This document shows positions 39,994 to 56,604 of a stretch of DNA of 64,000 nucleotides, piece after piece (the stretch's first letter is position 1; each line of letters starts with the position of its first letter). The notes beneath the pieces were generated by a model. The model was not told the origin of the DNA. It saw only the letters and a list, made by a program, of their open reading frames with translations, and did not search any database. Both the position numbers and the translations under genes were made by a program. Source of the DNA: Catenuloplanes niger (lineage in GTDB: Bacteria; Actinomycetota; Actinomycetes; Mycobacteriales; Micromonosporaceae); the NCBI RefSeq assembly GCF_031458255.1, contig NZ_JAVDYC010000001.1, positions 4,163,001-4,227,000 of the forward strand. Direction: 5' to 3'.

Positions 39994-40935
39994 CAGGACC
40001 TTGCCGAGGTGGCCGCCGGACTCGACCACGCGATGCGCCTCCGCGGCGTCGCGCATCGGGATCCGGCGGTCCACGACCGGCCGGACCGCGCCGGACTCGA
40101 TCAGCGGCCAGACGTGCTCGCGCACCTGCCGGACGATCTCCGCCTTCTGCGCCGCCGGCCGGAACCGCAGCGCCGTCGCGATCAGTGTGCCGCGCTTGGC
40201 CAGCAGCTTCGAGATGTGCAGCTCGGCCGTGCGACCGCCCTGCGTACCGATGATCACGAGGCGCCCGTCGGGCCGGAGCGCCTCCACGTTCCGCGCGAGG
40301 TAGGAGCCGCCCATGATGTCCAGGATGACGTCCGGCGCGACCCGCTTCTCGAACTCCTCGGTCGCGTAGTCGATCGTCTCGTCCGCGCCCAGCTCCCGCA
40401 GCGCCGCGTGCTTGCCCCGGCTCGCCGTGGTGGCCACCGTCGCCCCGAGCGCCCGGCCCAGCTGGATCGCGAACGTGCCGATGCCGCTGCCGCCACCGTG
40501 CACCAGCAGCGTCTCACCCTTCGCCAGGTGCGCGGCCATCACCACGTTCGACCAGACCGTGCACGCCACCTCCGGGAGCGCGGCCGCGTCCACCAGGTCC
40601 GTGCCCGCCGGCACCGGGAGCACCTGCGCGGCCGGCACCACGACGCGCTCCGCGTAACCGCCGCCGGCCAGCAGCGCACAGACGCGCTCGCCGACCTCGA
40701 ACCCGGTCACGCCCTCGCCGAGCGCGGCGACGGCCCCGGAGCACTCCAGCCCCGGGTACGGTGACGCGCCCTTGGGCGGCGGGTAGTCCCCCTGGCGCTG
40801 CATCAGGTCCGCCCGGTTCACCGCGCTCGCCGCCGTCTCGATCAGCAGCTCGCCCGGACCCGGCACCGGATCCGGCACCTCCGACCAGACGAGCGCCTCC
40901 GGCCCGCCGGGCTCCGGGATCGTGATCGCATGCAT
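39982..40935 (-). CDS. NAD(P)H:quinone oxidoreductase, zinc-free MDR family
   Basis: A 317-residue medium-chain dehydrogenase/reductase of the quinone oxidoreductase type. It has VNRADLMQRQGDYPPP, GLECSGAVAALGEGV, the nucleotide-binding GGGSGIGTFAIQLGRALGA and the terminal VESGGHLGKVLLV. Structural-zinc cysteines are missing, as expected for QOR/PIG3-like enzymes. The ATG at 40935 replaces a longer in-frame start. Functionally it would fit a SoxR-type response to quinones, but no SoxR box was found in front of it. Confidence 0.92.
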   Translation of the reverse strand: MHAITIPEPGGPEALVWSEVPDPVPGPGELLIETAASAVNRADLMQRQGDYPPPKGASPYPGLECSGAVAALGEGVTGFEVGERVCALLAGGGYAERVVVPAAQVLPVPAGTDLVDAAALPEVACTVWSNVVMAAHLAKGETLLVHGGGSGIGTFAIQLGRALGATVATTASRGKHAALRELGADETIDYATEEFEKRVAPDVILDIMGGSYLARNVEALRPDGRLVIIGTQGGRTAELHISKLLAKRGTLIATALRFRPAAQKAEIVRQVREHVWPLIESGAVRPVVDRRIPMRDAAEAHRVVESGGHLGKVLLVA

Positions 40936-41158
40936 ACGATCCTTATACCCACCCGCGCGGACGATCCGACACCCGGCGTACCCGCCCACATCGGCGCTGG
41001 TAGAAAACTTGCGAACCGCGGGTGATCCGCGACCTGCCACCGGGGTTGAAAATCCACCCGACCGGTCTGGCAAACTGGTGGTCGGGTAGTCGCATGGCCG
41101 GAACTTTTTTGCGACTCCCAGGCGGCGGAGCGTGCCCGAGCACCCTCCGACGAAGCCG

Positions 41159-41247
41159 GGAGGGCTCGCCTAGTGGCCGATGGCGGTGGTCTTGAAAACC
41201 ACTAAGGGTGGTGACACTCTTCCAGGGTTCGAATCCCTGGCCCTCCG
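41159..41247 (+). tRNA. tRNA-Ser (anticodon TGA), integration target of the AICE
   Basis: An 89-base type II tRNA. Acceptor arms GGAGGGC (41159-41165) and GCCCTCC (41240-41246) pair, followed by discriminator G at 41247; CCA is not encoded. The anticodon arm GTGGT-CTTGAAA-ACCAC gives anticodon TGA at 41193-41195. The long variable arm AAGGGTG-GTGA-CACTCTT and the T-arm CCAGG...CCTGG fit tRNA-Ser. The 3' part from 41190 is duplicated at 56533, so the 3' half of this gene is now supplied by the integrated element. Confidence 0.95.
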
Positions 41248-41250
41248 CAT
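41190..41250 (+). repeat. attL: 61-base direct repeat inside tRNA-Ser
   Basis: 61 bases starting TCTTGAAAACCACTA are repeated at 56533-56593 with two differences (A41205/G56548 and T41220/C56563). The repeat runs from the anticodon loop to just beyond the tRNA 3' end. The two differing bases pair with each other in the variable arm, so the change is A-T to G-C. Confidence 0.95.
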
Positions 41251-41263
41251 CCACGTGCGGAAA

Positions 41264-41306
41264 GCGGGTCGTCAGCAGCGGAAACGCTGCGGCGGCCCGC
41301 TTCTTG
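41264..41306 (+). terminator. Terminator behind tRNA-Ser, element-borne copy
   Basis: GCGGGTCG...GCAGCG and CGCTGC...CGGCCCGC form a long stem around GAAA, followed by TTCTTG. A related but diverged stem stands at the same distance after the attR repeat, so the element brought its own tRNA 3' end with terminator. Confidence 0.75.
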
Positions 41307-41630
41307 CTTCTCCGGCTGCGGTCCCACTGTGTCTCGCTTGATCTTGCTGTCGCTCGGCGTTCGGGGGCGTATCGGGGGGAAGGTCTCGACGGGCTCCCGC
41401 CACGCTTCCGGGGGCTTGTGCGCCGTCGGACCGCTTGTGGTCCGGGCGGCGCGTGTTCGGTACGTCACAGGTGCGGTCGACGGTCCGGGCGTCCGGCTTG
41501 CGCCGCGCGGTGGGTAACCCGAGGGGACCGGAGGCAAGCCGCGCAGCGGCGCGGCAGCCGATCGCCGGGAGCAACAGCGGCGGCCGGCCACCCACGCGAT
41601 CGTCACGGTCTGGACCACCACGGGTCGTCG
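41307..41630. other. Left end of AICE, no gene seen
   Basis: Between the terminator and the Mrr-like gene there is no supported reading frame. The stretch holds a 19-mer related to one near the right end (41363-41381) and several G-rich runs. It is the left half of what would be attP-flanking DNA after excision. Confidence 0.5.
41363..41381 (+). repeat. 19-mer shared by both element ends (left copy)
   Basis: GGGGGCGTATCGGGGGGAA here and GGGGGCGTATCCGGGGGAA at 56439-56457 differ at one position and have the same orientation. They lie 113 bases right of the attL repeat and 76 bases left of the attR repeat, so they would flank the core in the circular form. They may be integrase or excisionase arm sites. 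Confidence 0.5.
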
Positions 41631-42179
41631 TCAGTTGGGCGACTGTGGCCGCAACCAGAGGTAGAGCAGGAAGTCCAACTCCGTGATCTCCTCAGCGTCG
41701 TGCGGCGGCAGAAACGCCTCGTCCTCCCCCGGCTCGCGCTGCTTCGGGATCGTCAGCTCTCGGTACCGGCCAGGTCGGTTGAGCGCGAGCAGCATGACCG
41801 CGGGGCTCCTTATCGCTGCGGCGCGGGCTCGGGCGTTCCTGGTGAATCCGGAGATCGAGTAGAGGATGCCGCAGTCCGCCGCGATGTCCAGGAGCTTGCC
41901 CGCGAAGTGCTCGACCGCTCCGACGCCTACTGCCTGCTGCCGCTGCCTGCATTCGATCGCGACGGCGACATCCTCTCCCATGACCGGTCCCCACATCAGG
42001 ATCTCGACCGGCCGCGGGCTGCCGCTGAGCCGGCCGATCAGAGTCCGGTTGTACAGAGTGGTGGGCCGCCCGTCGAAGCAGAAGGTGAGCCGGCTGATCG
42101 AGCGCTGGTACCGCTCCAACGCGAGAGCCGCGTTCTGGTCCAGCGCGGGCGCGACTTGGGCATCGTCGGGAGAAACCAT
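41631..42179 (-). CDS. Mrr-like restriction-endonuclease-fold protein
   Basis: A 182-residue protein. Residues about 56-120 follow the Mrr/PD-(D/E)XK core: VEILMWGPVMGEDVAVAIEC, then AVEHFAGKLLDIAADCGILY, then ISGFTRNARARAAA. The usual catalytic E-x-K appears as IECRQR, with Arg in the Lys place, and the helix-strand-helix after it (nuclease domain 'v..f...l.d...gil.t..gft..a...A') is well kept. Mrr-type nucleases cut modified or foreign DNA. Arg for Lys could lower or change activity. It is the first gene inside attL and diverges from the OLD-like gene, with 263 bases between starts. I infer a defence-related cargo gene. Confidence 0.65.
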   Translation of the reverse strand: MVSPDDAQVAPALDQNAALALERYQRSISRLTFCFDGRPTTLYNRTLIGRLSGSPRPVEILMWGPVMGEDVAVAIECRQRQQAVGVGAVEHFAGKLLDIAADCGILYSISGFTRNARARAAAIRSPAVMLLALNRPGRYRELTIPKQREPGEDEAFLPPHDAEEITELDFLLYLWLRPQSPN

Positions 42180-42442
42180 GCCGCGACGTTAAAAGCACTC
42201 ACCTGCTCAAGGTCGCCCACCGTGTGCGTCGCCGGCGGCCGATGCCGGCCGGAGGCCGCCAGCAGGCCGCTGGCGACGCGGCACCGCTTGCGGTGCCCTT
42301 GATCCAGGAGAGACCAATTCGGCAGCTAGCTACTAGCTACCGAATTCTGAAGTTTCATACAGGTTGCAGAAGCAGCACAAAGCCAGCCAATTTGCTATGC
42401 CTTGATACGGCTTGGCCAGGTTCAAGACTGACCCACCTCTGC
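42180..42442. promoter_or_regulatory. Divergent promoter region of nuclease and OLD-like gene; GC drop begins here
   Basis: These 263 bases separate two divergent starts. Base composition falls abruptly at about 42310. GCTAGCTACTAGCTA (about 42324-42339) is a partly palindromic repeat. No clear ribosome site precedes either start, so one or both messages may be leaderless. Longer readings of the OLD-like frame into this region are possible. Confidence 0.45.
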
Positions 42443-44272
42443 ATGATCAACCATGTCGGGCATGATGTCTTAGTGGATACAGGAAAACCGGACTTGCTCA
42501 AGCTGACACGAGTTTCGCTCTTGAGTGGAGAGCAGATTGCTGTAGCTGAAGGTCTAACCGTGGTGGTTGGACCTAACAATGCCGGCAAGAGTAGATTGCT
42601 CCAGGAAATTGCTGAGCGCCTAACGCTTGTACAACTAGAGCCGCACATCCGGCCAAAGGTGACTGCTGGGATTGAGGTTGAAAGAAGGTGCGAGGAGGAG
42701 GCACTGATTGACTGGATGCGTGGGCGGTATAAGTTCTACGCCCCTGGATCGTATCCGCATGGGATCTACGAAGAAGAGAGCTTCACTTCACTCGGTGGGC
42801 CAGGGGTCGCGGTACGCGAGATCAAAAGAAGTTGGACCTCCGGGCAATCCAGTTTTGGCAAGCTCGCAAACTTCTTGCTGCGTCACATTCCCGCCGGGCA
42901 GGCTCAGAGCGCGGTGGCTACTTCCTCGTCTTTCAACGCCCTGCAAGAGGCTCCGACGCAACCGCTTCAATTCCTCTACGCTAATCGAGACCTAGAACGC
43001 CTTGCAAGCGAGGAGATGAGGTCGGCATTCGGCGAGCACCTTACCGTCAATCGATATGGCGGTAGTCAGATTACTCTGCACGTTGGAACTGTGGCCGCAG
43101 AGGAAGGCCCCGCCCCAGCCTCACCCGAGTATCTTGAAGAAATCAAATCACTTCCTCTTCTTCAAGATCAAGGTGACGGCGTTAAGTCATTCATGGGAAT
43201 GGTTCTAACTGTCATAACTGCAGGATACCCACTTCTTTTAATTGACGAGCCAGAAGCGTTTCTCCACCCACCTCAGGCCTACATGCTTGGTCGGTTCCTT
43301 GCGAGGCAGCACGATCGTGGCGTCCAAGTAATAGTTGCCACACACAGTGACGACATCCTTCGCGGAATTATGTCTGAAAAGTCGTCAGCAAGTGCGGTTA
43401 CCGTTGTGCGACTGACGCGTTCAAGCAAGGGCAATCACGCTGCGCAAGTGCATGTCGATAGGGTCCAACAGGTATACGAGGACCCACTGATCAAGTATTT
43501 CGGCATCCTGGACGGGCTTTTCTCTCATGGTGTAATGCTTTGCGAGGCAGGATCTGACTGCACGTATTATCGTGCGGTTCTTGAGTCTACCGTTAAGGTA
43601 TTGGACGGCGGCTTTGAGGTTTCAGCCCTAAGCGTGCACTTCGCACACTGCGGAGGCAAAACGGGCATCCCAAAAGCGGTGAGGGCACTAAGGGCCGCCC
43701 GGGTTCCTGTGGGATGCGCCGTGGACATCGACTTCCTGCAGGACGATGGAGACTTCACCGCATTAGTGGAAGCATGTGGTGGCAATTCAAAGAGTATGCA
43801 AAAAAATCGCAGTGTCGTACTGGCGGCAATCAAGTCCCGCATGAAGTACGCCGACAAAGATTTTGCCCGTTTTAAAATCACTGAAATCCTTAATAATGTT
43901 GATGGAGATCGGATCATGCCGGCCCAGGCAGCAGAAATTCGGTCTCTTATCACGCCGTCCAGTGGATGGAAGCTGTTCAAAAGCCAAGGTAAGGCACTCT
44001 TGATGGGCGAGGCGGCCGCCGCGTATGCATCACTAGACTCGGCACTGAAGAGTATAGGAATCTTCCTCGTCCCCGTGGGTGAACTTGAGTGTTTCCATAG
44101 GGATGTTCCTTCAAAGGACAAGGCAGCTTGGCTGCGTCAAGTTCTTGAATCCCGCGCTTACGAGGAGTCAGCGGAGGCTACAGCATACGTGAAGAATATC
44201 GCTGAATTTATCTGGCAACACCAAGATCAGGCGGCAACCACGGAAGGTAAAATCATCGGGGCCGCCGATTAG
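42443..44272 (+). CDS. OLD-family ATPase with C-terminal TOPRIM nuclease domain
   Basis: 609 residues from the ATG at 42443 (GTG 42473 is an alternative; an earlier ATG would add an unlikely Arg-rich leader). The ATPase has Walker A GPNNAGKS (43-50), ABC-type signature QGDGVKS (243-249), Walker B LLLIDEPEA (264-272) and His301 (VATHSDD). The TOPRIM domain follows: Glu368 (LCEAGSD), GGKTGIPKAVRAL, and Asp428/Asp430 (VDIDFL). This is the layout of OLD nucleases, which include GajA and phage-defence proteins. No UvrD (GajB), reverse transcriptase or separate AriB lies next to it, so a class 1 OLD or a new pairing with the nuclease is likely. GC is far below the neighbours and TTA codons encode Leu266 and Leu441. 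Confidence 0.88.
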   Translation: MINHVGHDVLVDTGKPDLLKLTRVSLLSGEQIAVAEGLTVVVGPNNAGKSRLLQEIAERLTLVQLEPHIRPKVTAGIEVERRCEEEALIDWMRGRYKFYAPGSYPHGIYEEESFTSLGGPGVAVREIKRSWTSGQSSFGKLANFLLRHIPAGQAQSAVATSSSFNALQEAPTQPLQFLYANRDLERLASEEMRSAFGEHLTVNRYGGSQITLHVGTVAAEEGPAPASPEYLEEIKSLPLLQDQGDGVKSFMGMVLTVITAGYPLLLIDEPEAFLHPPQAYMLGRFLARQHDRGVQVIVATHSDDILRGIMSEKSSASAVTVVRLTRSSKGNHAAQVHVDRVQQVYEDPLIKYFGILDGLFSHGVMLCEAGSDCTYYRAVLESTVKVLDGGFEVSALSVHFAHCGGKTGIPKAVRALRAARVPVGCAVDIDFLQDDGDFTALVEACGGNSKSMQKNRSVVLAAIKSRMKYADKDFARFKITEILNNVDGDRIMPAQAAEIRSLITPSSGWKLFKSQGKALLMGEAAAAYASLDSALKSIGIFLVPVGELECFHRDVPSKDKAAWLRQVLESRAYEESAEATAYVKNIAEFIWQHQDQAATTEGKIIGAAD

Positions 44273-44366
44273 TTTACGTGCATCCCTCTCACCGTCTGCC
44301 ACGCCGAACCGCCGCGTCGTGGAGTTTCATGCAATCCGATTATCTGTGATCTAATCGCGATCAGCA

Positions 44367-44585
44367 TTAAGCGGGATTTTTGGGCGGGCTTCCGTTTATT
44401 GCGTACTTACGTCCAATATCTTGAATCAAGGCAATCCATGAGGGTGGGCTGAACTGGAGGGTCGGCCCAGATCGAAATTTGCTATCCCGAACCCAAACCT
44501 GGCGGGAAGCTGTAAAGGCTACCTCAACGCAGTGGCCGCCGTTGGGACTGCTGCGGGTGGACTTTTTCCATGTCAGGTTGTCCAT
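44367..44585 (-). CDS. DUF397 protein
   Basis: A 72-residue DUF397 protein: NLTWKKSTRSSPNGGHCVEV, then VWVRDSK and LQFSPPSWIALI. DUF397 proteins in actinomycetes nearly always follow an XRE/DUF5753 regulator and act as small partner or antagonist of it, as with the WhiJ and Scr1/Scr2 type loci. Here the start overlaps the end of such a gene by 13 bases. The gene has the same low GC as the OLD-like gene, unlike its partner, so the two parts of the pair may have different histories. Confidence 0.93.
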   Translation of the reverse strand: MDNLTWKKSTRSSPNGGHCVEVAFTASRQVWVRDSKFRSGPTLQFSPPSWIALIQDIGRKYAINGSPPKNPA

Positions 44586-45412
44586 GACTCTGTGGCCTCC
44601 TGGATCAGCTTGAGGGACTGACGTTGGGGAAGGGCTTCTCCTAGGAGACCTTCCCAGATGTGGTGGATGGCATCAACGTCTGTCGTGGCCTCGATGACCA
44701 GGCCGCGGAGTTGGGTGTCGATGTAGGCGATCTCGGGATGGCCTGGGATAGTGGCGAGTGCGAAGGCGCCGGCTAGGCCTCTGTGTGTGCCGACCTCGGT
44801 GCGGAGGATGTGGATCTCGATGGTGCCGCCGCGGCTGGCCGTGGCTAGGTGGTCGAGTTGGTTGCGCATCACCTCGGGTGTTGGGCCGATGGGGCGGTGG
44901 AGGACTGACTCTTCGAGGATCGTGATGAGCCGTGGGGGGTTTGGGCGGTTGAAGATCTGCTGCCGGTCGATGCGGGCCGCTACTGCGCGTTGGAGAGTGT
45001 CCTCATCGGCTGCTGGGTCGCCGGCTTGGAACATGGCGTGGGCGTAGGCGGGGGTCTGTAGCAAGCCGTCCAGGACGAGTGGTTGGTATGAGCGGAGCTT
45101 GGTGGCGGCCTGCTCGATGTCTGCCCAGGGGCGGAACCACTCGGGCAAGGTCTCCCGGGTTGCGGTTGCCTGTGCGGTTTCCAAGAGTCGAACGAGCAGA
45201 CCCGCGGTACCGAGTATCTCGTCGGCGCGACGAATGAGGGCGTCGCTCGGCAGGCGCCGGCCGGTCTCGACAGCGGAGATCTGGCTGTCGGAGAAGTGGA
45301 TCTCTGCGCCGAGTTCTTGTTGAGTTATGCCGCGAGATTCGCGTGCGATCCGGAGTTCTCTGCCTAGAGAGATCAGCGTCGGGTGAGGTGTGCGTGTTGG
45401 ATTGTTGATCAC
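44573..45412 (-). CDS. XRE-family regulator with DUF5753 domain
   Basis: A 279-residue protein started with GTG at 45412. Residues about 12-70 are an XRE HTH (GRELRIARESRGITQQELGA, SDSQISAVETGRRLP). Residues about 90-275 are a DUF5753 domain (SYQPLVLDGLLQTPAYAHAM, DRQQIFNRPNPPRLITILEE, GTHRGLAGAFALATIPGHPE). The pair with a DUF397 protein is the classic actinomycete regulatory module. In WhiJ-type systems, loss of one partner releases developmental or antibiotic genes. On this AICE it may control cargo or host functions. Confidence 0.93.
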   Translation of the reverse strand: MINNPTRTPHPTLISLGRELRIARESRGITQQELGAEIHFSDSQISAVETGRRLPSDALIRRADEILGTAGLLVRLLETAQATATRETLPEWFRPWADIEQAATKLRSYQPLVLDGLLQTPAYAHAMFQAGDPAADEDTLQRAVAARIDRQQIFNRPNPPRLITILEESVLHRPIGPTPEVMRNQLDHLATASRGGTIEIHILRTEVGTHRGLAGAFALATIPGHPEIAYIDTQLRGLVIEATTDVDAIHHIWEGLLGEALPQRQSLKLIQEATESWTT

Positions 45413-45602
45413 GGCGCACCACAGCTATTCCACATGAAAGGTCTCAGATTCCCTTGCTGGCTCGCTGCTTCTGACTGCTGGGCATGGGGAGTCGGATCGG
45501 TTCCGTCGAGCGGTGCTGTCGGAAATAGTGTTCTCAGGTTCGATTGGTTACGAGGCGGGCGAGGCGGCCGCCTTGGTCGACATCCCTGTGCGAGGAGAAT
45601 CG

Positions 45603-45959
45603 ATGTCTGCGGAAGCTTCTGAGGACAAGACGGAAAGAGCGAACGATGATCACCCGCTCTGGTGCGATTCGGCTGAGTGTCGGGTGAACACGCCGGGCGC
45701 ATGGCATCGGTCGCGTATGGAGTTCATGCAATTGAGTGATGCGCTGGGTACTCGGGTTGGAATGCGCCTGCTCAGGTGCACGTCGTCGCCGGACGTGACC
45801 TGCGTCGAGTTCGAGGCATACGCCGTCGGTATCGAGGAGCCGGTGATGGAGCTGATCCTCGTGGAGGAAGACCTTGAGAGGTTCTCCAGCCTGCTCACCT
45901 CCACGGCGCACGCCTTGGGCGTGGAGACGGCGCAGTCGGTGCGCCTTGCGATTGTGTGA
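45603..45959 (+). CDS. AICE accessory protein, DUF6907-like, 118 aa
   Basis: The ATG at 45603 follows GAGGAGA by four bases, so I reject a longer reading from 45513. The N-terminal DHPLWCDSAECRVNT, then AWHRS, is the short Cys/His pattern seen in DUF6907-type proteins on actinobacterial plasmids. The rest is a beta-rich domain (MRLLRCTSSPDVTCVEFEAY) and an acidic helix (EEDLERFSSLLTSTAHALG). There may be a metal site formed by Cys, Cys and His. It stands alone between the XRE and YdcF genes. Function unknown. Confidence 0.65.
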   Translation: MSAEASEDKTERANDDHPLWCDSAECRVNTPGAWHRSRMEFMQLSDALGTRVGMRLLRCTSSPDVTCVEFEAYAVGIEEPVMELILVEEDLERFSSLLTSTAHALGVETAQSVRLAIV

Positions 45960-46003
45960 GCGCACGGGGCAAGCCGGGGGAGGTGGGCTTCGAGCTTGAG
46001 CCC

Positions 46004-46669
46004 TCAGACCAGGCGGCTTGTGTAGCCGGCTGCCACGAGGCGCCCGTATGCCGCGCGGACTGAGTCGGGCATCGGCTGGGGGATCGCCCAGCCGGCCTCG
46101 GCCCACGTATCGATGCGTTGGGTATCGCCGACCATGGTGTCGATGACCTTCTTCGCGTTGCCGATGAAGGCGAAGTAGTCGTCGATGGGCAGAGGGTGTG
46201 AGGCGCAAATGACGTCGACCTCGGGCCAGTGCTTCTTGCAGATGGAGTAGCCACGTCGCTGCTGGTAGGGGCGGGACATGAGGGTGACGGTCTTGATGTC
46301 CTTGTAGCCACGCTCCTCCAGCAGCTCGCGGGAAAGGACGATGTTCTCCGCGGTGTGCCGGGCCTTCGTCTCGATGAGGATTGCCTCGTCAGGGACGCCG
46401 TGCTCAAGGGCGTACTCGCGGTAGTGCACGGCCTCGCCGCGCGGGAAGACCTCAACCGTGGGCGGCGCGTTGGCGCCTGTGAACAGCAGGATCGGGTACA
46501 TGCCGCGGTGGTAGAGGTCGGTGCCGATCATGGCTACACCGATGTCATGGCTGCCCAGTCCGATGCCGATGTCGGTGGGACGGAGTTCGTGGCCCATCTG
46601 GTGGTAGTTCCACAGGGTCTCGACATCCTCGCGGATCTCGGCGGGGATGACGGCCGGGCTGTTCGTCAT
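46004..46669 (-). CDS. YdcF-family protein (DUF218)
   Basis: A 221-residue soluble protein with the DUF218 pattern: IGIGLGSHDIGVAM, ILLFTGANAPP, GEAVHYREYALEHGVP, ETKARHTAENIVLSRELL and TVTLMSRPYQQRRGYSICKK. There is no membrane segment, unlike SanA/ElyC types, so it is the small YdcF form, for which SAM binding was reported in E. coli. Its activity is unknown. GGAGG precedes the ATG at 46669. It follows the GntR gene by 21 bases, and I recall GntR-YdcF pairs as recurring on AICEs and actinobacterial plasmids. Confidence 0.9.
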   Translation of the reverse strand: MTNSPAVIPAEIREDVETLWNYHQMGHELRPTDIGIGLGSHDIGVAMIGTDLYHRGMYPILLFTGANAPPTVEVFPRGEAVHYREYALEHGVPDEAILIETKARHTAENIVLSRELLEERGYKDIKTVTLMSRPYQQRRGYSICKKHWPEVDVICASHPLPIDDYFAFIGNAKKVIDTMVGDTQRIDTWAEAGWAIPQPMPDSVRAAYGRLVAAGYTSRLV

Positions 46670-46690
46670 GGCGTGGCCTCCGGGTGAAGG

Positions 46691-47458
46691 TCAGTCGGGG
46701 ATCTGGAAGTGGTAGGTCCAGGCGAAGCGGGAAGCGGCATGGACGCCGCGGGCGAACTCGACCGGGCGTCCCTCGGCCGTGTACGTGATGCGGTGCAGGA
46801 TCATCACCGGCTCGCCGCCGGGGAGTTGGAGTAGCTCGATCTCGTCGGGCGTCGGCATCCGGGCGCGAACGGTTTCGGTGATGTTGTCCGGCTCCAAGCC
46901 CTGGCTTGTCAGGACGGCGAAGCCACCACCGCGGCCGGCCGGGCCGGCCTTCGCGTCGACGAGCGGTGTGCCCTCGACGTCCTCCGGCCGGTAGTAGCTG
47001 TTCAGGGTGTGCGTCGGCGCGCCGGCTTCCTTGACCAGACGCGCTCGCTCGTAGACCTGATCACCGACCTCGAGACCGAGCGCTTCCGCGATGTCGGCGT
47101 CCGCGGTCGTCATCCGTACCGTCTGGGTCTGGTCTCCGGGTTTCCATGGCCGGCCGGTGGCCTCGCGGTCGGCGGCGAACGCGACCAGGCCGGCGGCCTT
47201 CCACTTGCTCTTCGCGTAGCGGTCGGCGCCGAGGCGCTTCATCGGCAGGCGTGGGCGGACCACGGTGCCGCGACGGCGGACCGGAGTGACGAGACCTTCG
47301 GCTTCGAGGATGCGTACCGCCTGGCGAACGGTCTTGATGTTGACGCCGTGCAGCGTCGCGATCTCCTCCTGTTTGGGCAGCGTGGTGCCCTCGGCGTACT
47401 CGCCGCGTGAGATCGCCGCTCGCAGGATGGCCGCCAGTTCTCGGTAGCCGGTGGTCAT
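46691..47458 (-). CDS. GntR-family regulator (HutC/UTRA type)
   Basis: A 255-residue regulator. Residues about 1-70 are the GntR winged helix (YRELAAILRAAISRGEYAEG, TTLPKQEEIATLHGVNIKTV). Residues about 100-250 are a UTRA effector domain (VYERARLVKEAGAPTHTLNS, GEPVMILHRITYTAEGRPVE). In pSAM2-type elements a GntR protein, KorSA, represses pra and transfer genes. This is one of two such proteins here; its adjacent YdcF partner and the palindrome at 47559 suggest it mainly controls its own divergent region. Confidence 0.92.
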   Translation of the reverse strand: MTTGYRELAAILRAAISRGEYAEGTTLPKQEEIATLHGVNIKTVRQAVRILEAEGLVTPVRRRGTVVRPRLPMKRLGADRYAKSKWKAAGLVAFAADREATGRPWKPGDQTQTVRMTTADADIAEALGLEVGDQVYERARLVKEAGAPTHTLNSYYRPEDVEGTPLVDAKAGPAGRGGGFAVLTSQGLEPDNITETVRARMPTPDEIELLQLPGGEPVMILHRITYTAEGRPVEFARGVHAASRFAWTYHFQIPD

Positions 47459-47521
47459 GGTCCCCCCTCGGTTGAGCGCCCTGAAGCTAGCACCTCAGAG
47501 GTCGATCTTTTTGCTTAGGAG

Positions 47522-47572
47522 TAGCTCTATTGACAGCGCTGACCCGCAGTGTCTCTAATAGAGCTAGCTCTA
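47522..47572. promoter_or_regulatory. Candidate GntR operator, palindrome TAGAGCTAGCTCTA
   Basis: A perfect 14-base palindrome, TAGAGCTAGCTCTA, lies at 47559-47572, and a half-site TAGCTCTA at 47522-47529. They are in the 136 bases between the divergent GntR gene (46691-47458) and the small zinc-ribbon gene at 47595. AT-rich half-sites of this kind suit GntR dimers. Confidence 0.6.
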
Positions 47573-47594
47573 ATGGTGATGGCGGGGAGGCCGG

Positions 47595-47912
47595 ATGTCG
47601 GCGAGCGAGATCGAGACGGGTTCCTCCGAGCGGTTCCCGGATCGGGGCGAGCGGGCCGGTGATCCGCTCCCGGCCTTCGCCGTGGAGTTTCTGGTCTGCA
47701 CCTCGTGCCGGGGTGCCGGCTGGAAGTACGTGGTCAGGCGGTCGGCTATGCGAGTTATGGCCTGCACCTGCGAACGGGTTGACGCGTCGTTTCGTCGGCC
47801 CTGCCTTGACTGCGGTGGCTCTGGGAAGTTGCCACGGTTCGATGTGGCGTCGGTGCAGGTCATGCGAGCCAAGCTGGCGCCGTTCCTTAATCCCGGCCCG
47901 CACCAGGAGTAG
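47595..47912 (+). CDS. DnaJ-type zinc-ribbon protein, 105 aa
   Basis: A 105-residue protein with two CxxC pairs in DnaJ-like context: CTSCRGAGWKYVV (35-47) and CLDCGGSGKLP, with ACTCER between, so six cysteines could hold one or two zinc ions. The N-terminus is acidic and disordered. GGGGAGG stands ahead of the ATG at 47595. It is the first of three closely spaced small rightward genes between the two GntR regulators. Its role is unknown; similar CxxCxGxG proteins are frequent on actinomycete plasmids. Confidence 0.65.
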   Translation: MSASEIETGSSERFPDRGERAGDPLPAFAVEFLVCTSCRGAGWKYVVRRSAMRVMACTCERVDASFRRPCLDCGGSGKLPRFDVASVQVMRAKLAPFLNPGPHQE

Positions 47913-47957
47913 GAATGGGCTGCATCGGCGCCCTGCACCGTTGATTTCGACGGGGGC

Positions 47958-48233
47958 GTGATGGATCCCAAGGTCGGGGACGTGCTGATCGTCGATCGGC
48001 GGGCATCGGTGCAGTTCAGCGGCGTGAATTCGCTGATCCTGCGGGTGATCTCGGTGTCCGACGGGGCGACCTACGACGGATGGGCCTGGGTTGCCGGCTA
48101 TGTCATCGACCCGGCGACGGGTGAGGCAACCGTGCGTCGAGAGATCTTCGTGCTTCGTGGCGGCTTGCGACTCGCCGCACCCGGCCCGGTATTGATGAGG
48201 GGGTTGAGCGATGACGGTCTACCTGAGCGCTGA
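47958..48233 (+). CDS. AICE hypothetical protein, 91 aa
   Basis: A small beta-rich protein, MDPKVGDVLIVDRRASVQFS, with VNSLILRVISVSDGATYDGW and AWVAGYVIDPATGEATVRRE, consistent with an SH3-like or OB-like barrel. Start is GTG 47958 or the adjoining ATG 47961. It overlaps the next gene by 23 bases. No family recognised; it is probably one of the variable accessory proteins of AICEs. Confidence 0.6.
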   Translation: MMDPKVGDVLIVDRRASVQFSGVNSLILRVISVSDGATYDGWAWVAGYVIDPATGEATVRREIFVLRGGLRLAAPGPVLMRGLSDDGLPER

Positions 48234-48492: not shown

Positions 48493-48528
48493 CCGGTCTT
48501 GCCTGCTCATGTGCATCAGGTTTAGTGT

Positions 48529-48542: not shown

Positions 48543-48569
48543 TGGGTTGTGTGATGGGGCGGAGTGTGT

Positions 48570-50743: not shown

Positions 50744-51123
50744 CCGCGCGTCGCGTTGTCGTGAAGAAGCTGGCCGAGCTGGGGATCGCGGCGGTCCGGC
50801 ACGTCTACGTCTCGTGCCCGGTCGACGTGCTGCGGGTGGCGGCCCTGGTGGAGATCTCCGCTGCCGCCGCATCCCTGGCCCGGACGATCGTGAAGCTCAA
50901 TCACCTGGACCCGGCCGGTATCGCGCCGTATGTCTCCGATCCGGCGGACATGCGCGCGGTGCTCGGCCGGGGCCGCTGGCTGCCCACCATGATCCGGCAC
51001 GTCCCGGAGGTCAACACCAAGCTGGGCCAGCACAGCCGGCGCCCGGAGCCTGCACAGCTCCCGGATCAGATCCCGCTCTTTCCCGCGACGGAGACGGAAG
51101 CGGGGGCCGCAGAGTGCCGCTGA
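50740..51123 (+). CDS. AICE hypothetical protein, 127 aa
   Basis: Started at the GTG at 50740 (GTGA overlap), the protein has 127 residues, mostly helical: VVKKLAELGIAAVRHVYVSC, VAALVEISAAAASLARTIVK and a Pro-rich acidic tail. It overlaps traB by 10 bases and so is translated with it. No motif recognised. Confidence 0.6.
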   Translation: MTARRVVVKKLAELGIAAVRHVYVSCPVDVLRVAALVEISAAAASLARTIVKLNHLDPAGIAPYVSDPADMRAVLGRGRWLPTMIRHVPEVNTKLGQHSRRPEPAQLPDQIPLFPATETEAGAAECR

Positions 51124-52547
51124 TCAACGTGATTCCGGGAGACAAGATCCCAACCGCGCCGATGAACGTCCGGGTGCCGGTATGGCGGGTGCCCGGCTGG
51201 CTCCTCGTCCTGTGGTGGACGCTCCGCGGCGTGTTCCGGGCGACGGTGCTCGCGGTCCGCTACTGGTGGCTGACCGGCCCGGCCGCGCTGATCGTCTGGA
51301 TCTGGGCCGACTTCGGCTGGGAGATCCTTCTCGCGGTGCTCGCGACGCTGACGGCGGGTGGCGCGGGGTGGTGGCGGTGGCATCGCACGACCTGGCACCG
51401 GTTCGTATGGTGGCCGCTGCTGGGCCGGTGGCGTCGGCTGTTCGTCTACCGGCGCGGCTGGGCGCCGGCCATGGCCACGTGCGGGCTGGCCACGGTGTTC
51501 GGCGGTGACAAGTACGTCCCGCAGCTCCTCGGCGTCCGCGCCACCGAGTTCGGCGACGAAGTGACCGTGCGGATGCTGCCCGGCCAGCACCCGGACGACT
51601 GGGGCAAAGCCGCACCGCGCCTGGCCTACACGTTCCGCGTCCGGGAGGGCCGTGCCCGCACGCACCGCCGTCCCGACCGAATCGTCCTGGTGTTCCTGCG
51701 CCGCGATCCGCTGGCGGCAACGATCGCGCCGATCCCGACTCCCACGAGCCTCGACCTCGCCCGGCTGCCGCTCGGCGTCCAGGAGAACGGCGACGCGTAC
51801 GCGCTGCGGCTCGCCGGATCGCACGTGCTGATCGGCGGGGCCACGAACGCGGGCAAGGGATCGGTCATCTGGGCGCTGATCGCCGCGCTCGCGGGCGGTA
51901 TCCAACAACGTCTCGTCGAGCTGTGGGTCTTCGACCCGAAGGGCGGCATGGAACTGGCCGGCGGCCTGCCGCTGTACACCCGCTTCGTCTACGACACCGC
52001 CGAGACCATGGCCGGCGTCCTGGAAGACGCGGTGGTGCGCATGCGGGCTCGCGCCAACCGGCTCCGCGGCGTCACCCGCCAGCACACCCCGACGCCGGGC
52101 GACTCGCTGATCATCATCGTGATCGACGAGCTGGCCGCGCTCACCTCATACATCTCGGACCGGAAGGTCCGCGATCGCATCCGGGAGTCGCTGTCGCTGC
52201 TGCTGTCCCAGGGCCGCGCGGTCGGCGTCCACGTGATCGCCGCGCTTCAGGACCCGCGCAAGGAGGTGTTGCCGTTCCGGGACCTGTTCCCGACCCGGAT
52301 CGCACTCCGGCTGACCGAGGCCGAGCAGGTGGATCTCATCCTCGGCGACGGTGCCCGCAACCGGGGTGCGCTCGCGGACGAGATCCCGGAGACCTCGCCG
52401 GGCGTCGCGTTCGTCTCGCTTGACGGCGTGCGTGAGCCGGTGAAAGTGCGGTTCGCCTATCACTCCGACAGCGACATCCAAGACCTTTGCCACCGGTACG
52501 GATACGAGCAGGTCGTCGAGGGCGAGATCGTGGGGGAGACCCGATGA
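51114..52547 (+). CDS. traB: TraB-like FtsK/SpoIIIE DNA translocase (conjugative transfer)
   Basis: A 477-residue protein from the GTG at 51114. Two N-terminal membrane spans (about 28-48 and 54-83) are followed by an FtsK/SpoIIIE motor: Walker A GGATNAGKGS (241-250), WVFDPKGGMELAG, Walker B LIIIVIDELAAL (332-343) and the sensor-like VHVIAALQDPRKEVLPF. TraB of actinomycete plasmids is the only element protein needed to move double-stranded DNA between mycelia, acting as a hexameric pore and recognising clt repeats through a C-terminal winged helix. The C-terminal part here is short (about 100 residues), so the clt-binding module may be reduced or different. No clt repeat array was recognised. 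Confidence 0.92.
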   Translation: MPLINVIPGDKIPTAPMNVRVPVWRVPGWLLVLWWTLRGVFRATVLAVRYWWLTGPAALIVWIWADFGWEILLAVLATLTAGGAGWWRWHRTTWHRFVWWPLLGRWRRLFVYRRGWAPAMATCGLATVFGGDKYVPQLLGVRATEFGDEVTVRMLPGQHPDDWGKAAPRLAYTFRVREGRARTHRRPDRIVLVFLRRDPLAATIAPIPTPTSLDLARLPLGVQENGDAYALRLAGSHVLIGGATNAGKGSVIWALIAALAGGIQQRLVELWVFDPKGGMELAGGLPLYTRFVYDTAETMAGVLEDAVVRMRARANRLRGVTRQHTPTPGDSLIIIVIDELAALTSYISDRKVRDRIRESLSLLLSQGRAVGVHVIAALQDPRKEVLPFRDLFPTRIALRLTEAEQVDLILGDGARNRGALADEIPETSPGVAFVSLDGVREPVKVRFAYHSDSDIQDLCHRYGYEQVVEGEIVGETR

Positions 52548-53122
52548 CCCGCGCGGAGCGTTTCGAGGGCGTGGTCCTGGTCGCGATCCTGCTGACCGTG
52601 GGCACGCTGGCCGGGGCGGCGTCGTTCACGCACGTGCACGACTGGACCATGCACAACAGCCCGGCCGGTACGCCGGATTGGTTCGGCTGGGCGAATGCCG
52701 CGATCTCCGAACTCCTCCCGATCGCCGCGCTGCTGACCATCCGCGCCCGGCGGCGGGCCGACAGGCCGATCGGCTACCCGATGTTCCTGCTCGTCTGCGG
52801 GGTCGCGTTGTCGCTGTCGGCTCAGCTCGCGGTCGCCAAGCCGGGCATCTCCGGCTGGCTGCTGTCGGCCGTACCGGCGCTGGCCTTCATGGGTCTGTCC
52901 AAGCTCGTCCTGTCCGGGAAGCCGGCCATGCCCGCGGCGCCGATCAAGGCTCCGGTCATGGAACCGGCGCACTGGGTGCCGACCGAGCCCACGCCGGCCA
53001 CCGAAGCGCATCCGTCACCGGGCGGCGATGAGCCGCAACCGCGCCCGGCGAACGACCGGTCCGGTCTCGTTCCGGTGCCCGCGCTGGCCTTCACCCGCCC
53101 GAACGCGGAGGTGGCGCGATGA
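52544..53122 (+). CDS. DUF2637 membrane protein
   Basis: A 192-residue protein with ATGA overlap to traB and ATGA overlap to repSA. Four hydrophobic segments lie in the first 130 residues (VVLVAILLTVGTLAGAASFT, ISELLPIAALLTI, MFLLVCGVALSLSA, LLSAVPALAFMGL), including the DUF2637-like SFTHVHDW and GWANAAISELLPIA. The C-terminal 60 residues are Pro/Glu-rich and cytoplasmic. DUF2637 proteins are fixed members of AICE and plasmid transfer operons and probably help spreading in the mycelium (Spd-like role); this is inferred. Confidence 0.85.
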   Translation: MTRAERFEGVVLVAILLTVGTLAGAASFTHVHDWTMHNSPAGTPDWFGWANAAISELLPIAALLTIRARRRADRPIGYPMFLLVCGVALSLSAQLAVAKPGISGWLLSAVPALAFMGLSKLVLSGKPAMPAAPIKAPVMEPAHWVPTEPTPATEAHPSPGGDEPQPRPANDRSGLVPVPALAFTRPNAEVAR

Positions 53123-54867
53123 CTCAGCCGGCGCTGATCCCGGCCGCGGGTGACGAGCCCCGGCCGGGGTCGCGGGCCGCGCGGATGCGGCAGCCGCTCG
53201 CCAAGGACGCGCTCAAGCAGCTCGCGGAGAACAACGGCGTCTGCGTCCGTCCGGTCGTCCTGCGCCGCACCGACACGTTCACCGGCGTCACGGAGATCGT
53301 CGAGGTGCCGTGCGGGGCGACCCTGGCGGCGAAGTGCAAGCCGTGCGCCGAGCGTGGCCGGCGGCTGCGCATCCAGCAGATCCGGGAGGGCTGGCACCTC
53401 GCCGACGAGCCCGCGATCGACCTGGACCCACCAACCGCGGACGTGTTCGACCTCGTGGCCCAGCGAGCGCACCTGGAGTTCGACCGGGAAGCGCTCAACT
53501 ACCAACCGATGACCCCGGACGAGCGGGCCGCGCAGATCACCGCCCTGGACGAGGAGATCGCACAGGCTGACGAGCTGCTGGCCGAGACGAATCTCCGCGG
53601 CCACCTGACCCCACGCGACCGAGACGAGCGCCCACGGCGGAAGCGGTCGACGAAGCGCCGGCAGGACTCCCCGGACCTGCCCCGGCTGCCGGTCGACGGG
53701 CGCACGGTCGGCCGGGCCTTCGCCGGCCGGGCGGGCAAGACCTACCGGCCGTCGATGCTCGTCACCCTGACCCTCGACTCACACGGCCCGGTCCACTCGC
53801 ACATCCGGCGCGGCGCCTACGTCGTCCCGTGTGAGTGCGGCGCCCGGCACGGCCGGTACGACCCGGAACTCGGCACACCGGTCGACCCGGACACCTACGA
53901 CTACCGGCGGGCCGCACTCGACGCGATCCACTTCGCGCGGGTGATGGATCGCTGGTGGCAGAACCTCCGCCGGGCGACGGGTTGGAACGTGCAGTACGCG
54001 GGCGCGGTGGAACTGCAACGTCGGCTCGCTCCGCACGCGCACTTTGCGATCCGGGGCACGATCCCGCGGCGGCTGCTCAAGCAGGTAGCGGCGGCCACCT
54101 ACCACCAGGTGTGGTGGCCGCCGTTCGATCGGGCGTCCTACTCGGTGGACAAGCCGCCGGTCTGGGATACGGACGAGGGCGGCTACGTCGACCCGAAAAC
54201 CCGCGTGCCGCTGCCGACGTGGGATGAGGCGCTGGATGCGATCGACGAAGACCCGGCCTACGTCGCCCGGCTCGGCCGGATCGACGCGCGCGGGATCGAG
54301 TCCGGCACCAAAGACGCGGAGCGCGCGATTCGGTACGTGACCAAGTACGTCACCAAGGACCTGACCGAACACGCGACCCCCAAGACGGACCCGCAGCGGG
54401 CGCACTTCGACCGGCTCCACGCGGAGCTGTCCACGCTCCCGTGCTCACCGACCTGCGCGAACTGGCTGCTCTACAACGTCCAGCCGGACGGCGCGAAACC
54501 CGGCCTCACACCGGGCCGCTGCACCGGCAAGGTGCACCAGCGCTCGACGCTCGGCTTCACCGGCCGCCGCGTCCTGGTGTCTCGGCAGTGGTCCGGCAAG
54601 ACCCTGGCCGACCACCGCGCGGACAACCGCGCCTGGGTCCGCGCCGTCCTGGCCGGCGGTCTCGCTGACACCGAGGACAGCCAACCGGCGACCGAGGAAG
54701 ACCCGAAGCGCTTCCGCTTCGAGCTGGCCCGACCGGACGACCCGGACGTCCTCCCGCTCGAACATCGCGTTCTACGTGCTGTTTCAGCCCGCATCCGATG
54801 GCGCGGTCAACTTGCCGCCGCTCAACAGCGCCCCCTTTCAGCAGTCCCCACTCAGCAGGCTGCATGA
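53119..54867 (+). CDS. repSA: RepSA-type rolling-circle replication initiator
   Basis: A 582-residue protein. Cysteines at the N-terminal side (CKPC 73-76, PCECG about 237) suggest a zinc module. The HUH metal motif is PHAHF (305-309) and the candidate catalytic tyrosines lie in YVTKYVTKDL (Tyr406, Tyr410), the order found in RepSA of pSAM2. The enzyme nicks the double-strand origin of the excised circle and starts rolling-circle replication before transfer. The origin itself was not located; in pSAM2 it is close to or within the rep gene. The ATG overlaps the DUF2637 stop. Confidence 0.93.
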   Translation: MTQPALIPAAGDEPRPGSRAARMRQPLAKDALKQLAENNGVCVRPVVLRRTDTFTGVTEIVEVPCGATLAAKCKPCAERGRRLRIQQIREGWHLADEPAIDLDPPTADVFDLVAQRAHLEFDREALNYQPMTPDERAAQITALDEEIAQADELLAETNLRGHLTPRDRDERPRRKRSTKRRQDSPDLPRLPVDGRTVGRAFAGRAGKTYRPSMLVTLTLDSHGPVHSHIRRGAYVVPCECGARHGRYDPELGTPVDPDTYDYRRAALDAIHFARVMDRWWQNLRRATGWNVQYAGAVELQRRLAPHAHFAIRGTIPRRLLKQVAAATYHQVWWPPFDRASYSVDKPPVWDTDEGGYVDPKTRVPLPTWDEALDAIDEDPAYVARLGRIDARGIESGTKDAERAIRYVTKYVTKDLTEHATPKTDPQRAHFDRLHAELSTLPCSPTCANWLLYNVQPDGAKPGLTPGRCTGKVHQRSTLGFTGRRVLVSRQWSGKTLADHRADNRAWVRAVLAGGLADTEDSQPATEEDPKRFRFELARPDDPDVLPLEHRVLRAVSARIRWRGQLAAAQQRPLSAVPTQQAA

Positions 54868-55076
54868 AGACGAAGGAGATGACCGGAGGCTTGGATCGCA
54901 AGCTGCTGTCCGTTCCTGAGGTGCTCACCGAACTCGTCGTCCCCCGTTCGACCTTCTACAAGTGGCGTCGCCTCGGCATCGCCCCACGCTGCATCAAGCT
55001 GCCCAACGGTGAGGTCCGCATCCGACGTGCCGACCTCGACGCGTGGCTGTGCCAGCGGGAGGACAACGCCGCATGA
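54864..55076 (+). CDS. xis: Excisionase (Xis), MerR-like HTH
   Basis: A 70-residue protein whose ATG overlaps the repSA stop. KLLSVPEVLTELVVPRSTFY then KWRRLGIAPRCIKL and VRIRRADLDAWL form the winged helix typical of AICE excisionases of the helix_turn_helix_17/MerR type. It binds near attR/attL to steer the integrase towards excision. The stop overlaps the integrase start (ATGA), giving the usual rep-xis-int order. Confidence 0.93.
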   Translation: MKTKEMTGGLDRKLLSVPEVLTELVVPRSTFYKWRRLGIAPRCIKLPNGEVRIRRADLDAWLCQREDNAA

Positions 55077-56548
55077 GCAGCTACGACGTGAAGATCCACG
55101 ACATGGGCAAGCGCGATGACCGCGGTAAGAGCAAGAGTCATCGCGTCCGCTGGGTCGTGGCCGGCAAGCGGTTCGAGCGCTCGTTCACCACGAAGGCGCT
55201 CGCTGACCGCTTCCGCTCCGACCTGGTGAAGGCCGCCGCGGCGGGTGAGCCTTTCGACGAACTCACCGGCCTCCCCGAGTCCAAGCTGCGCGAGCAGGAC
55301 CGCACCACCTGGTACGACCACGCCCGCGCCTACATCGAGATGAAGTGGCCGCACGCTGCGGCGAAGTCCCGCAAGTCCATGGTCGATGCGCTGCTCACGG
55401 TCACCCCCGTGCTGATCGTCGCTGACCGTGGGGCGCCGGACGCGGAGACTTTGCGCCGGGCGCTCTACCGCTGGGCGTTCAACCCGAACACCAGGTCCGA
55501 GTCCGTTCCGGCAGCTGAGGAGGCAGCCCTCGCCTGGCTGAGTCGGCAGTCTCTCCCGGTCGGCCGGTTGCGCGACACCGACCACATCCGTACCGCGCTG
55601 AACGCCTGCTCCCGGCGACTCGACGGAAAGCCGGCGGCGGCCACCACGGTTCAGCGCAAACGCGCCGTCTTCTACAACGCGCTCGGCTACGCCGTCGAGC
55701 GGAACCTCCTCGACTTCAACCCGATCGACCGCACCCAGTGGAAGGCACCCGCGGTCGCGGAGGCGGTCGACCGGCGGGTGGTCGCCAACACCGCCCAGGT
55801 GGAATCGCTTCTCGACGCTGTTCCGGCAGTGCACCCGCAGGGCGCCCACCTGGTCGCCTTCTTCGCCTGCCTCTACTTCGCCGGTCTCCGTCCGTCCGAG
55901 GCCGCGTCGCTGCGCCGGGCCGACTGTCACCTTCCGGAAAGTGGCTGGGGGCGGATCGATCTCGCTGAGACCGCGCCACCGACCGGGGCCGACTGGACGG
56001 ACGACGGAGAGGTCCGCCAGGTACGCGGTTTGAAGCACCGGGCCGAGACGGAGATGCGCAGCGTCCCGATCCCGCCCGACCTGGTGCGCATCCTCCGCGC
56101 TCACCTGGCCGAGTTCGGGACCGCCGATGACGGCCGGCTGTTCCGCGCGGCTCGTGGCGGCTACCTGGTCGAGTCGACCTACGGCGAGATCTGGCGCGAC
56201 GCGCGGAAGGCTGCGCTGACTCCCGAGCAGGCCGTCTCCCCGCTCGCCGGCCGACCCTACGATCTGCGGCACGCCGCGGTGACGCTCTGGTTGAACGGCG
56301 GTGTTCCGGCAACCGAGGTCGCCAGCCGGGCCGGCCACGGTGTCGCCGTGCTCCTGAAGGTCTACGCCGGTTGCATCGATGGGGACGAGGAGCACATCAA
56401 CCAGCAGATCGAGCGGGCGATCAAGGCAAGTCGGGGGCGGGGGCGTATCCGGGGGAACCGCCCGGTGAATCCGGCGCGTTCCAAGTCGAAACCGCAGGTC
56501 GCGTCGGGTAAGGGTTCACCGAAACGCAGTTCTCTTGAAAACCACTAG
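55073..56548 (+). CDS. int: Tyrosine recombinase (integrase) of the AICE
   Basis: A 491-residue tyrosine recombinase. An N-terminal arm-binding part (about 1-80), a core-binding domain (about 130-230) and a catalytic domain with Arg273 (GLRPSEAASL), YDLRH (396-400, with Arg399 and His400; the usual first His is Tyr), His422 (RAGHG) and nucleophile Tyr431 (LLKVYAG). The last 60 residues are basic and rich in Arg/Gly/Lys. The stop TAG (56546-56548) lies inside the attR repeat, so the final codons LENH are tRNA-Ser sequence. The enzyme recombines attP with the tRNA-Ser gene. Confidence 0.96.
   Translation: MSSYDVKIHDMGKRDDRGKSKSHRVRWVVAGKRFERSFTTKALADRFRSDLVKAAAAGEPFDELTGLPESKLREQDRTTWYDHARAYIEMKWPHAAAKSRKSMVDALLTVTPVLIVADRGAPDAETLRRALYRWAFNPNTRSESVPAAEEAALAWLSRQSLPVGRLRDTDHIRTALNACSRRLDGKPAAATTVQRKRAVFYNALGYAVERNLLDFNPIDRTQWKAPAVAEAVDRRVVANTAQVESLLDAVPAVHPQGAHLVAFFACLYFAGLRPSEAASLRRADCHLPESGWGRIDLAETAPPTGADWTDDGEVRQVRGLKHRAETEMRSVPIPPDLVRILRAHLAEFGTADDGRLFRAARGGYLVESTYGEIWRDARKAALTPEQAVSPLAGRPYDLRHAAVTLWLNGGVPATEVASRAGHGVAVLLKVYAGCIDGDEEHINQQIERAIKASRGRGRIRGNRPVNPARSKSKPQVASGKGSPKRSSLENH
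56439..56457 (+). repeat. 19-mer shared by both element ends (right copy, inside int)
   Basis: GGGGGCGTATCCGGGGGAA differs from the copy at 41363 by one base. It lies within the coding region for the Arg/Gly-rich integrase tail, 76 bases before the attR repeat. It may double as a recombinase arm site. Confidence 0.5.
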
Positions 56549-56593
56549 GGGTGGTGACACTCCTCCAGGGTTCGAATCCCTGGCCCTCCGCAT
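56533..56593 (+). repeat. attR: 61-base direct repeat (original host tRNA-Ser 3' end)
   Basis: The second copy of the 61-base repeat. It starts at TCTTGAAAACCACTA and ends just after the tRNA 3' end. By the logic of site-specific integration this is the host's former tRNA 3' half; its variable arm has G56548-C56563 where the present tRNA has A-T. Confidence 0.95.
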
Positions 56594-56604
56594 CTGCGTG
56601 CGGA

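Follow-up and report, generated by a model that had tools for sequence, protein, structure and literature searches.

The 64,000-nucleotide stretch of Catenuloplanes niger DNA analyzed here (the window) carries an actinomycete integrative and conjugative element (AICE) of ∼15 kb in a tRNA-Ser gene. The first gene inside its left attachment site (attL) encodes an Mrr-like protein; divergent from it lies a gene for an OLD-type ATPase-TOPRIM protein, followed by convergent genes for a DUF397 protein and an XRE-DUF5753 regulator. An initial annotation, made from the sequence alone, had placed the two divergent genes just inside attL, as our open reading frame (ORF) and Pfam analyses confirm, and had read them either as a new two-component defence system or as a class 1 OLD acting alone. 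The features around the OLD gene are as follows.

41631..42179, minus strand: Mrr_cat-fold protein of 182 amino acids (aa), a usual backbone gene of the element (four of five copies; Pfam, sister elements)
42180..42325: conserved left edge of the cargo slot (alignments with other genomes of the genus)
42326..44366: variable cargo slot of 2,041 bp, G+C content (GC) 0.529, its content different in each of five copies
42443..44272, plus strand: OLD-type ATPase-TOPRIM gene, 609 aa, the only cargo gene seen in the window's slot
44367..44585, minus strand: small ORF, the DUF397 gene, right edge of the slot (ORF listing and DNA alignment to sister copies)
44573..45412, minus strand: XRE-DUF5753 regulator, slot anchor (Pfam DUF5753 2e-53; kept in five of five copies)

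The OLD reading frame is open from a GTG at 42224, and agreement with relatives makes the ATG at 42443 the likely start. The residue numbering given initially (K49, D268, E368, D428/D430) was right and fits this start and the 609-aa product. The foreign low GC ascribed to the gene was also borne out, at 0.531 against 0.697 for the whole window. PADLOC matches the protein to Old (8.7e-22). Its N-terminal part matches Pfam AAA_21 at 2e-15, with AAA_21 and AAA_15 both exceeding their cut-offs, and its C-terminal part matches OLD-like_TOPRIM at 1.1e-4 (23.1 bits, barely below the cut-off of 23.2). We aligned the window protein with 37 relatives, drawn from 66 full-length ORFs among 80 loci. Walker A K49, Walker B D268-E269 and H301 are invariant in these 38 sequences, as are the TOPRIM residues E368, D372, D428 and D430; this upholds the description of an intact OLD ATPase fused to a TOPRIM domain, and the gene looks intact by sequence. 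In a profile alignment to 6p74, E368/D372 and D428/D430 fall on E377/D381 and D431/D433 of the Thermus scotoductus OLD, which are described as metal ligands (PMC7049728). Further on, the candidates for second metal-site residues are E549, which is invariant, and E547, with at least 90% conservation; the alignment to 6p74, which covers TOPRIM up to the DxD motif, ends short of them and does not reach T. scotoductus S478/E480 or the basic R487. When the OLD family profile was compared with the PDB, the best match was 6p74, the class 1 OLD of T. scotoductus (4.2e-15), followed by AriA (3.7e-8), the Eco8 effector (3.9e-7) and GajA (4.3e-6). PARIS profiles also match the protein (AriA 5.5e-18, AriAB 1.5e-13); the Old profile scores better, and there is one fused gene here.

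The left-edge segment is matched in the four other genomes of the genus (G095 to G098) at 72-95% over the matched part, with G096 contributing only ∼100 bases at 72%. Three sister copies carry the Mrr-like gene, and their alignments to the window stop at 42325, 42325 and 42327. On the right, similarity restarts at 44435 (G098), 44518 (G095 and G096) and 44521 (G097), within the DUF397 gene, whose far end has diverged; the Pfam DUF397 match (8.6e-17) was scored on a sister copy (L031:8191-8373), not on the window's ORF. Between these edges, the five slots hold five different cargos at a GC of 0.51-0.56. Slot ORFs were picked by length and codon-position GC, and a subset of ORFs was scanned against profiles. 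No similarity among the five slots was found by blastn (E ≤ 1e-3) or by blastp of all 136 ORFs of at least 50 aa (E ≤ 1e-3), with self-matches as the control. The four sister slots contain the following.

G098: 474-aa pentapeptide-repeat protein (Pfam 2.4e-12; PADLOC none), with an N-terminal hydrophobic stretch by eye
G095: protein of 1,308 aa whose N-terminus is REase-like, with NACHT (PDC-S73 2.8e-8; NACHT 4.2e-4, below cut-off), plus a NUDIX gene
G097 (L034:13008-16777): GmrSD-like PDC-M55C (2.1e-78), DUF3800_VII (6.2e-14) and a retron type VII reverse transcriptase (RT_VII-A2 1.1e-62; RT_III-A nearly equal, 4.3e-63)
G096: ORF called toxin-like by eye and from its context (no match), HTH_3 (2e-8) and a SecB-like gene (2e-4, below cut-off)

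OLD is thus confined to the window's copy, and the Mrr-like gene is kept in four of the five; G096 lacks the Mrr-like gene yet still has cargo. In the four copies that bear the Mrr-like gene, the main cargo points away from it, beginning 44-118 bp beyond the conserved edge. The cargo slot that had been supposed beside attL is therefore real in the sense that its content differs in each of five copies, and conserved edges with variable content are, in terms of sequence, the arrangement of a mobile-element defence hotspot.

We also asked what accompanies OLD genes elsewhere. Relatives of the window protein, at 26-56% identity to it, come from many bacterial phyla, and a scan with a seven-sequence OLD alignment gave at least 294. 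The best 80 of these and six other-genus loci made up a set of 86 OLD loci, 84 of them distinct (L038/L060 and L040/L127 are duplicated) and some on short contigs with little flanking sequence. When ORFs within 4 kb were compared all against all by blastp (E ≤ 1e-8), each neighbour family was confined to at most 4 of the 86 loci; distant families could escape this comparison. The four families that reach four loci were considered as a hidden partner and rejected; three of them resemble transposases or a serine recombinase by eye. XRE-DUF5753 genes lie near OLD at three loci outside the genus (L041, L042 and L059). By informal judgement, three loci are not clearly above chance for an OLD-specific partner, given how common these genes are in actinomycetes (the window's genome has 22, E ≤ 1e-10). 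Neither a UvrD-like helicase nor a reverse transcriptase adjoins the window's OLD by ORF and Pfam analysis, its neighbours being the Mrr-like and DUF397/XRE genes, and Rfam returned no retron RNA at 40,900-50,500 (the tRNA and one sub-threshold match inside it). The initial statement that a Gabija or retron partner is lacking is in agreement with these results. Class 1 OLD genes are by definition single (PMC10568477; PMC7049728), and the window's OLD, in an isolated-gene context with no helicase, no retron and no recurring partner, fits class 1. The lack of a recurring partner in 86 loci and the best PDB match to 6p74 both favor the option of a class 1 OLD alone.

Taken together, the slot and the context indicate that the OLD is very probably a stand-alone, class-1-like protein, encoded by exchangeable cargo in a fixed AICE slot between the segment upstream of the Mrr-like gene (to 42325) and the DUF397/XRE-DUF5753 genes (from 44367). 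Judged from its family and from the company it keeps, its function is probably anti-phage. Because the slot edges are sharp, we infer that cassettes would be swapped via recombination in the conserved flanks. The protein may dimerise through its ATPase region, and the ATPase would sense an event caused by the phage. The TOPRIM domain might then cut nucleic acid, either DNA or a tRNA; P2 Old reportedly senses the inhibition of RecBC and cuts a tRNA (PMC13261556). By such an action the phage, and perhaps the cell as well, would be stopped, and both element and host would benefit.

The element that carries the slot is delimited by the following features.

41159..41248, plus strand: tRNA-Ser(tga), the attachment gene (ARAGORN)
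41221-41251, overlapping the tRNA-Ser gene: attL core, a 31-bp exact repeat with 56564-56594
46691..47458, minus strand: GntR-UTRA regulator of the element
51039..52547, plus strand: FtsK/SpoIIIE-type transfer protein (Pfam 5.5e-10)
53119..54867, plus strand: RepSA replication initiator (Pfam 3.3e-96; five of five genus genomes)
55043..56548, plus strand: tyrosine integrase (Pfam 5.9e-8)
56564..56594, plus strand: attR core, 31-bp exact repeat

A tRNA attachment (att) repeat with a predicted tyrosine integrase, RepSA and FtsK-type transfer protein is the signature of an AICE, and the element had been correctly named as such. Its backbone is present in all five genus genomes, the RepSA of the four others matching at 90-94%. 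In G095 the RepSA gene contains one in-frame TGA, so some copies are not intact; G096 has an additional, split RepSA copy. The G098 copy occupies the same tRNA-Ser as the window at ∼92% DNA identity. In G095, G096 and G097, similarity to the window backbone ceases near 54,821-54,824. Beyond that point, G095 and G097 have a different integrase and then a tRNA-Pro gene adjoining the trigger-factor gene, and G096 aligns with G095 there. One AICE backbone is thus seen with two integrase modules, at tRNA-Ser in two genomes and at tRNA-Pro by the trigger-factor gene in the others (L045 and L046 versus the window). No exact 16-mer repeat of the tRNA region was found in the retrieved stretches of G095 and G097, and the outer ends of these tRNA-Pro elements are approximate. 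Since the far end of G095 is homologous to the tRNA-Pro side of G097 and G096, the tRNA-Pro element seems to end just beyond the Mrr-like gene. Within the window's element, an Imm35-type immunity protein gene lies at 49283-49630 (7.9e-13); no toxin gene was noticed in passing beside it.

The XRE gene at the right edge belongs to a subfamily that reaches beyond this element. At E ≤ 1e-85, its members occupy 12 places in the five genus genomes, five of which are the element described above, and none was found in the other 349 Micromonosporaceae genomes (seven candidates scored per genome). Stretches around the seven other loci (L159-L165, with outer stretches L185-L193) contain an integrase match in six cases and a tRNA gene in all seven. 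In the backbone of L165, the one scored among the seven, the place of RepSA is taken by DnaB/DUF3987 and GntR-AAA genes together with a weak FtsK match; L161 and L164 have ORFs that resemble these by eye. From 300 to 1500 bases downstream of the XRE gene, 11 of the 12 loci have a GC of 0.50-0.55; the remaining one, G095, where the NUDIX gene comes first, has 0.61. Over the same interval, the window's genome gives 0.66-0.76 at its 19 other XRE paralogues, none of which has a GC drop. Upstream of the 12 XRE genes the GC is 0.61-0.66, also under most of the 19 paralogues (0.65-0.75). Here mobile loci are set against probably chromosomal ones, so the comparison identifies the subfamily as a marker of cargo but does not demonstrate control over it. 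The seven additional slots contain the following.

L159: PIN-domain gene (Pfam 9e-9; PADLOC none) and an unmatched gene
L160: NNH1-NACHT-LRR (Pfam 3.6e-36 and 4e-22)
L161: genes with no match
L162: CapP-like peptidase (4.4e-32) and an HTH gene
L163 (10640-12888; window's own genome, ∼4.967 Mb): two different Pycsar-type PycC cyclases (2.1e-88 and 2e-93) and one PycTM-like effector (4.4e-27)
L164 (10466-11935): RexA-like (5.3e-5) and RexB-like (1.1e-4) genes, a weak pair
L165 (10793-13116; window's own genome, ∼4.42 Mb): AriA/PtuA-like ATPase (∼2.5e-23) and AriB-like gene (5.8e-5), PARIS-like

By profile, we graded six of the 12 slots as strong candidate defence matches (the window, G097, L160, L162, L163 and L165) and four as weak or indirect (G095, G096, L159 and L164). 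PADLOC matches to HTH genes were left uncounted because the XRE gene itself draws such matches. AICEs are described that carry a nuclease family, and XRE, GntR, NUDIX and RepSA are listed among the usual AICE genes (PMC11706625); the G095 NUDIX gene may therefore belong to the element rather than to the defence cargo. In every slot but L161 (11 of 12), the main cargo runs towards DUF397 and hence does not share an operon with the XRE pair. Published accounts treat XRE-DUF397 pairs as regulators or as proposed toxin-antitoxin pairs (PMC10364602, PMC7159879), and in search listings of the open-access literature we found no description of a defence slot anchored by one. It is conceivable, and we put it forward only tentatively, that one XRE-DUF5753/DUF397 subfamily serves in this one genus as a dedicated anchor, perhaps a switch, for swappable defence cassettes in at least two backbones (RepSA and DnaB/DUF3987).

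These slots also bear on whom the OLD protects. As cargo, it might work chiefly for the element, either by countering rival plasmids or AICEs or through addiction, and not primarily against phages. Its relatives occur on plasmids (7 of 72,556 records), and in Actinomadura sp. DC4 (L078), an independent case, one lies at most ∼10 kb from AICE-type RepSA, FtsK and GntR genes. None of 50,697 phage records holds a relative (E ≤ 1e-10). Six of the subfamily's 12 slots, however, match anti-phage families strongly, and we consider a mainly element-serving OLD somewhat unlikely.

The Mrr-like protein had been named a nuclease. It resembles the Mrr_cat restriction endonucleases (PF04471) in a profile match of 1.6e-7 over residues 70-124 (31.9 bits versus a cut-off of 21). 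It has no NCBIfam match, a second domain was not found in its 182 aa, and a PDB search gave chance-like matches only. The catalytic motif of Mrr proteins is D...(E/Q)xK. In contrast, the corresponding place in the window's protein reads E59...E76-C-R78, with both the expected D and K replaced, and two sister copies have E-C-D and E-C-K. Across the alignment of 21 family members, counted by eye, the expected lysine is present in two. The name nuclease is therefore not sustained, and the active site, to judge from these residues, is mostly degenerate. With a GC of 0.672 the gene resembles the host, and it evolves under purifying selection, the ratios of nonsynonymous to synonymous substitution (dN/dS) being 0.17-0.43 in six pairwise comparisons of four copies.

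Relatives of the Mrr-like protein (E ≤ 1e-6) are present in 5 of 354 Micromonosporaceae genomes, which are all five of the window's genus, and OLD relatives (E ≤ 1e-20) in 7 of the 354; the family-wide searches, that for the XRE subfamily included, scored the best 3, 9 or 7 candidates per genome, and misses are possible. The window's own genome is the only one with both. Three further Mrr-like paralogues form a chromosomal tandem in G000, G095, G096 and G098; in G097, two chromosomal paralogues are adjacent and others lie within 7 kb. In each of the five genomes, 16-36 kb separate this cluster from the trigger-factor gene, whether or not the element lies between. In the window's own genome (L036:8838-10472, ∼2.69 Mb), the three tandem genes mostly lack the expected catalytic lysine and are conserved across the genus. 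The Mrr-like gene most likely belongs to the element or the lineage and has a role other than nucleic-acid cleavage; its product may act in DNA binding, regulation or maintenance, with no tie to OLD.

Such a role could still concern the slot. The Mrr-like protein might be a generic helper or gatekeeper for any slot cargo, for instance by controlling cassette expression or by promoting exchange via the slot DNA. Its constant place next to four different cargos, the selection on its gene, and the direction and close start of the main cargo in those four copies would suit this role. Against it, the G096 copy holds cargo with no Mrr-like gene, none of the seven other XRE-DUF397 loci gives an Mrr-like profile match (E ≤ 1e-4, 20 kb scanned) although they carry cargo, the chromosomal paralogues are located away from any slot, and the catalytic lysine is found in so few members. 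We find this helper role unlikely.

A pair in which the Mrr-like protein is the partner or regulator of OLD, which adjacency, divergence and a shared place inside attL had suggested and which could be young and specific to this element, is very unlikely and was rejected: the two genes have separate distributions; all three sister elements with the Mrr-like gene carry other cargo at the OLD position; none of the 86 OLD loci (the best 80 of at least 294, plus six) has an Mrr-like relative in the flanking DNA retrieved (profile of 21 Mrr-like proteins, E ≤ 0.1); and the edge of conserved DNA at 42325 runs between the genes. The profile recovers the copies in control loci, as expected since it was built from them. 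Conserved co-occurrence, named at the outset as the check on the pair, was thus not observed, and the separate distributions are explained by OLD sitting in an exchangeable slot while the Mrr-like gene usually stays with the element.

Several observations weigh against reading the OLD as a stand-alone, exchangeable defence gene. The TOPRIM match is slightly below its Pfam cut-off, and a PDB search with the single OLD sequence was weak, UvrA (0.0016) outscoring 6p74 (0.0049). At 609 aa the protein is long for class 1, although class 1 is defined by context; class 1 proteins are ∼50 aa shorter than class 2 as an average, not a rule, and the GajA chains in the PDB have 575-675 aa. The five copies come from one genus and are related samples, one of them has the interrupted RepSA gene, and swapping through the flanks is read from their pattern. 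G096 also lacks the Mrr-like gene, which may at times be swapped with the cargo, and a link of OLD to the Mrr-like gene in this single genome is conceivable. Two of the 12 slots (G098 and L161) have no defence match of any kind, and the anti-phage role suggested for OLD derives from its family and company. The nuclease step is uncertain because YbjD, another lone OLD, is reported to retain its anti-phage phenotype with the TOPRIM domain removed (PMC13261556).

Compared with known systems, the window's OLD is closest to the class 1 OLD proteins (6p74, P2 Old and E. coli YbjD/OldB): each is encoded by a single isolated gene, has an N-terminal ABC ATPase and a C-terminal TOPRIM with E...D and DxD, and lacks a helicase or reverse transcriptase partner. 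It differs in its 609-aa length and in being AICE-borne rather than prophage-borne, and it is known from sequence alone. The OLD effectors of Gabija, PARIS and retron type I share the ATPase-TOPRIM architecture, whereas the window's OLD has no UvrD-like gene, separate AriA/AriB pair or reverse transcriptase. The slot itself recalls the old/tin hotspot of P2 prophages, where the old locus is described as a site at which other systems also occur (PMC10568477; PMC9122126). In both, OLD takes a position that holds other anti-phage systems, predicted ones in the present case, in other copies of the element; here the element is an actinomycete AICE and the edges are the Mrr-like gene and the XRE-DUF397 pair. 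For Streptomyces AICEs, like mobility genes with different cargo, including phage-resistance genes, and one family at different sites are described (PMC9513070). The present element resembles them in its mobility modules, differing cargo and several insertion sites, and differs in that cargo lies in a single defined slot next to one XRE-DUF397 subfamily.

As a family member, the OLD is ordinary; it bears on the question, raised in PMC10568477, of whether single class 1 OLD genes protect broadly alone. The slot and its marker are the useful part. In place of a false two-gene system there is now a testable rule for this genus, namely that a cargo slot lies beyond one XRE-DUF397 pair. A discovery bias affecting actinomycetes is described in a published survey (PMC10482375). 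At least half of the cassettes in these slots are, by profile, of defence type, which makes the pair a marker for new actinomycete systems. If the subfamily is indeed a dedicated anchor, the pentapeptide-repeat protein, the unmatched genes of L161 and L159 and the lone OLD would be new or untested defence systems, findable through adjacency to DUF397.

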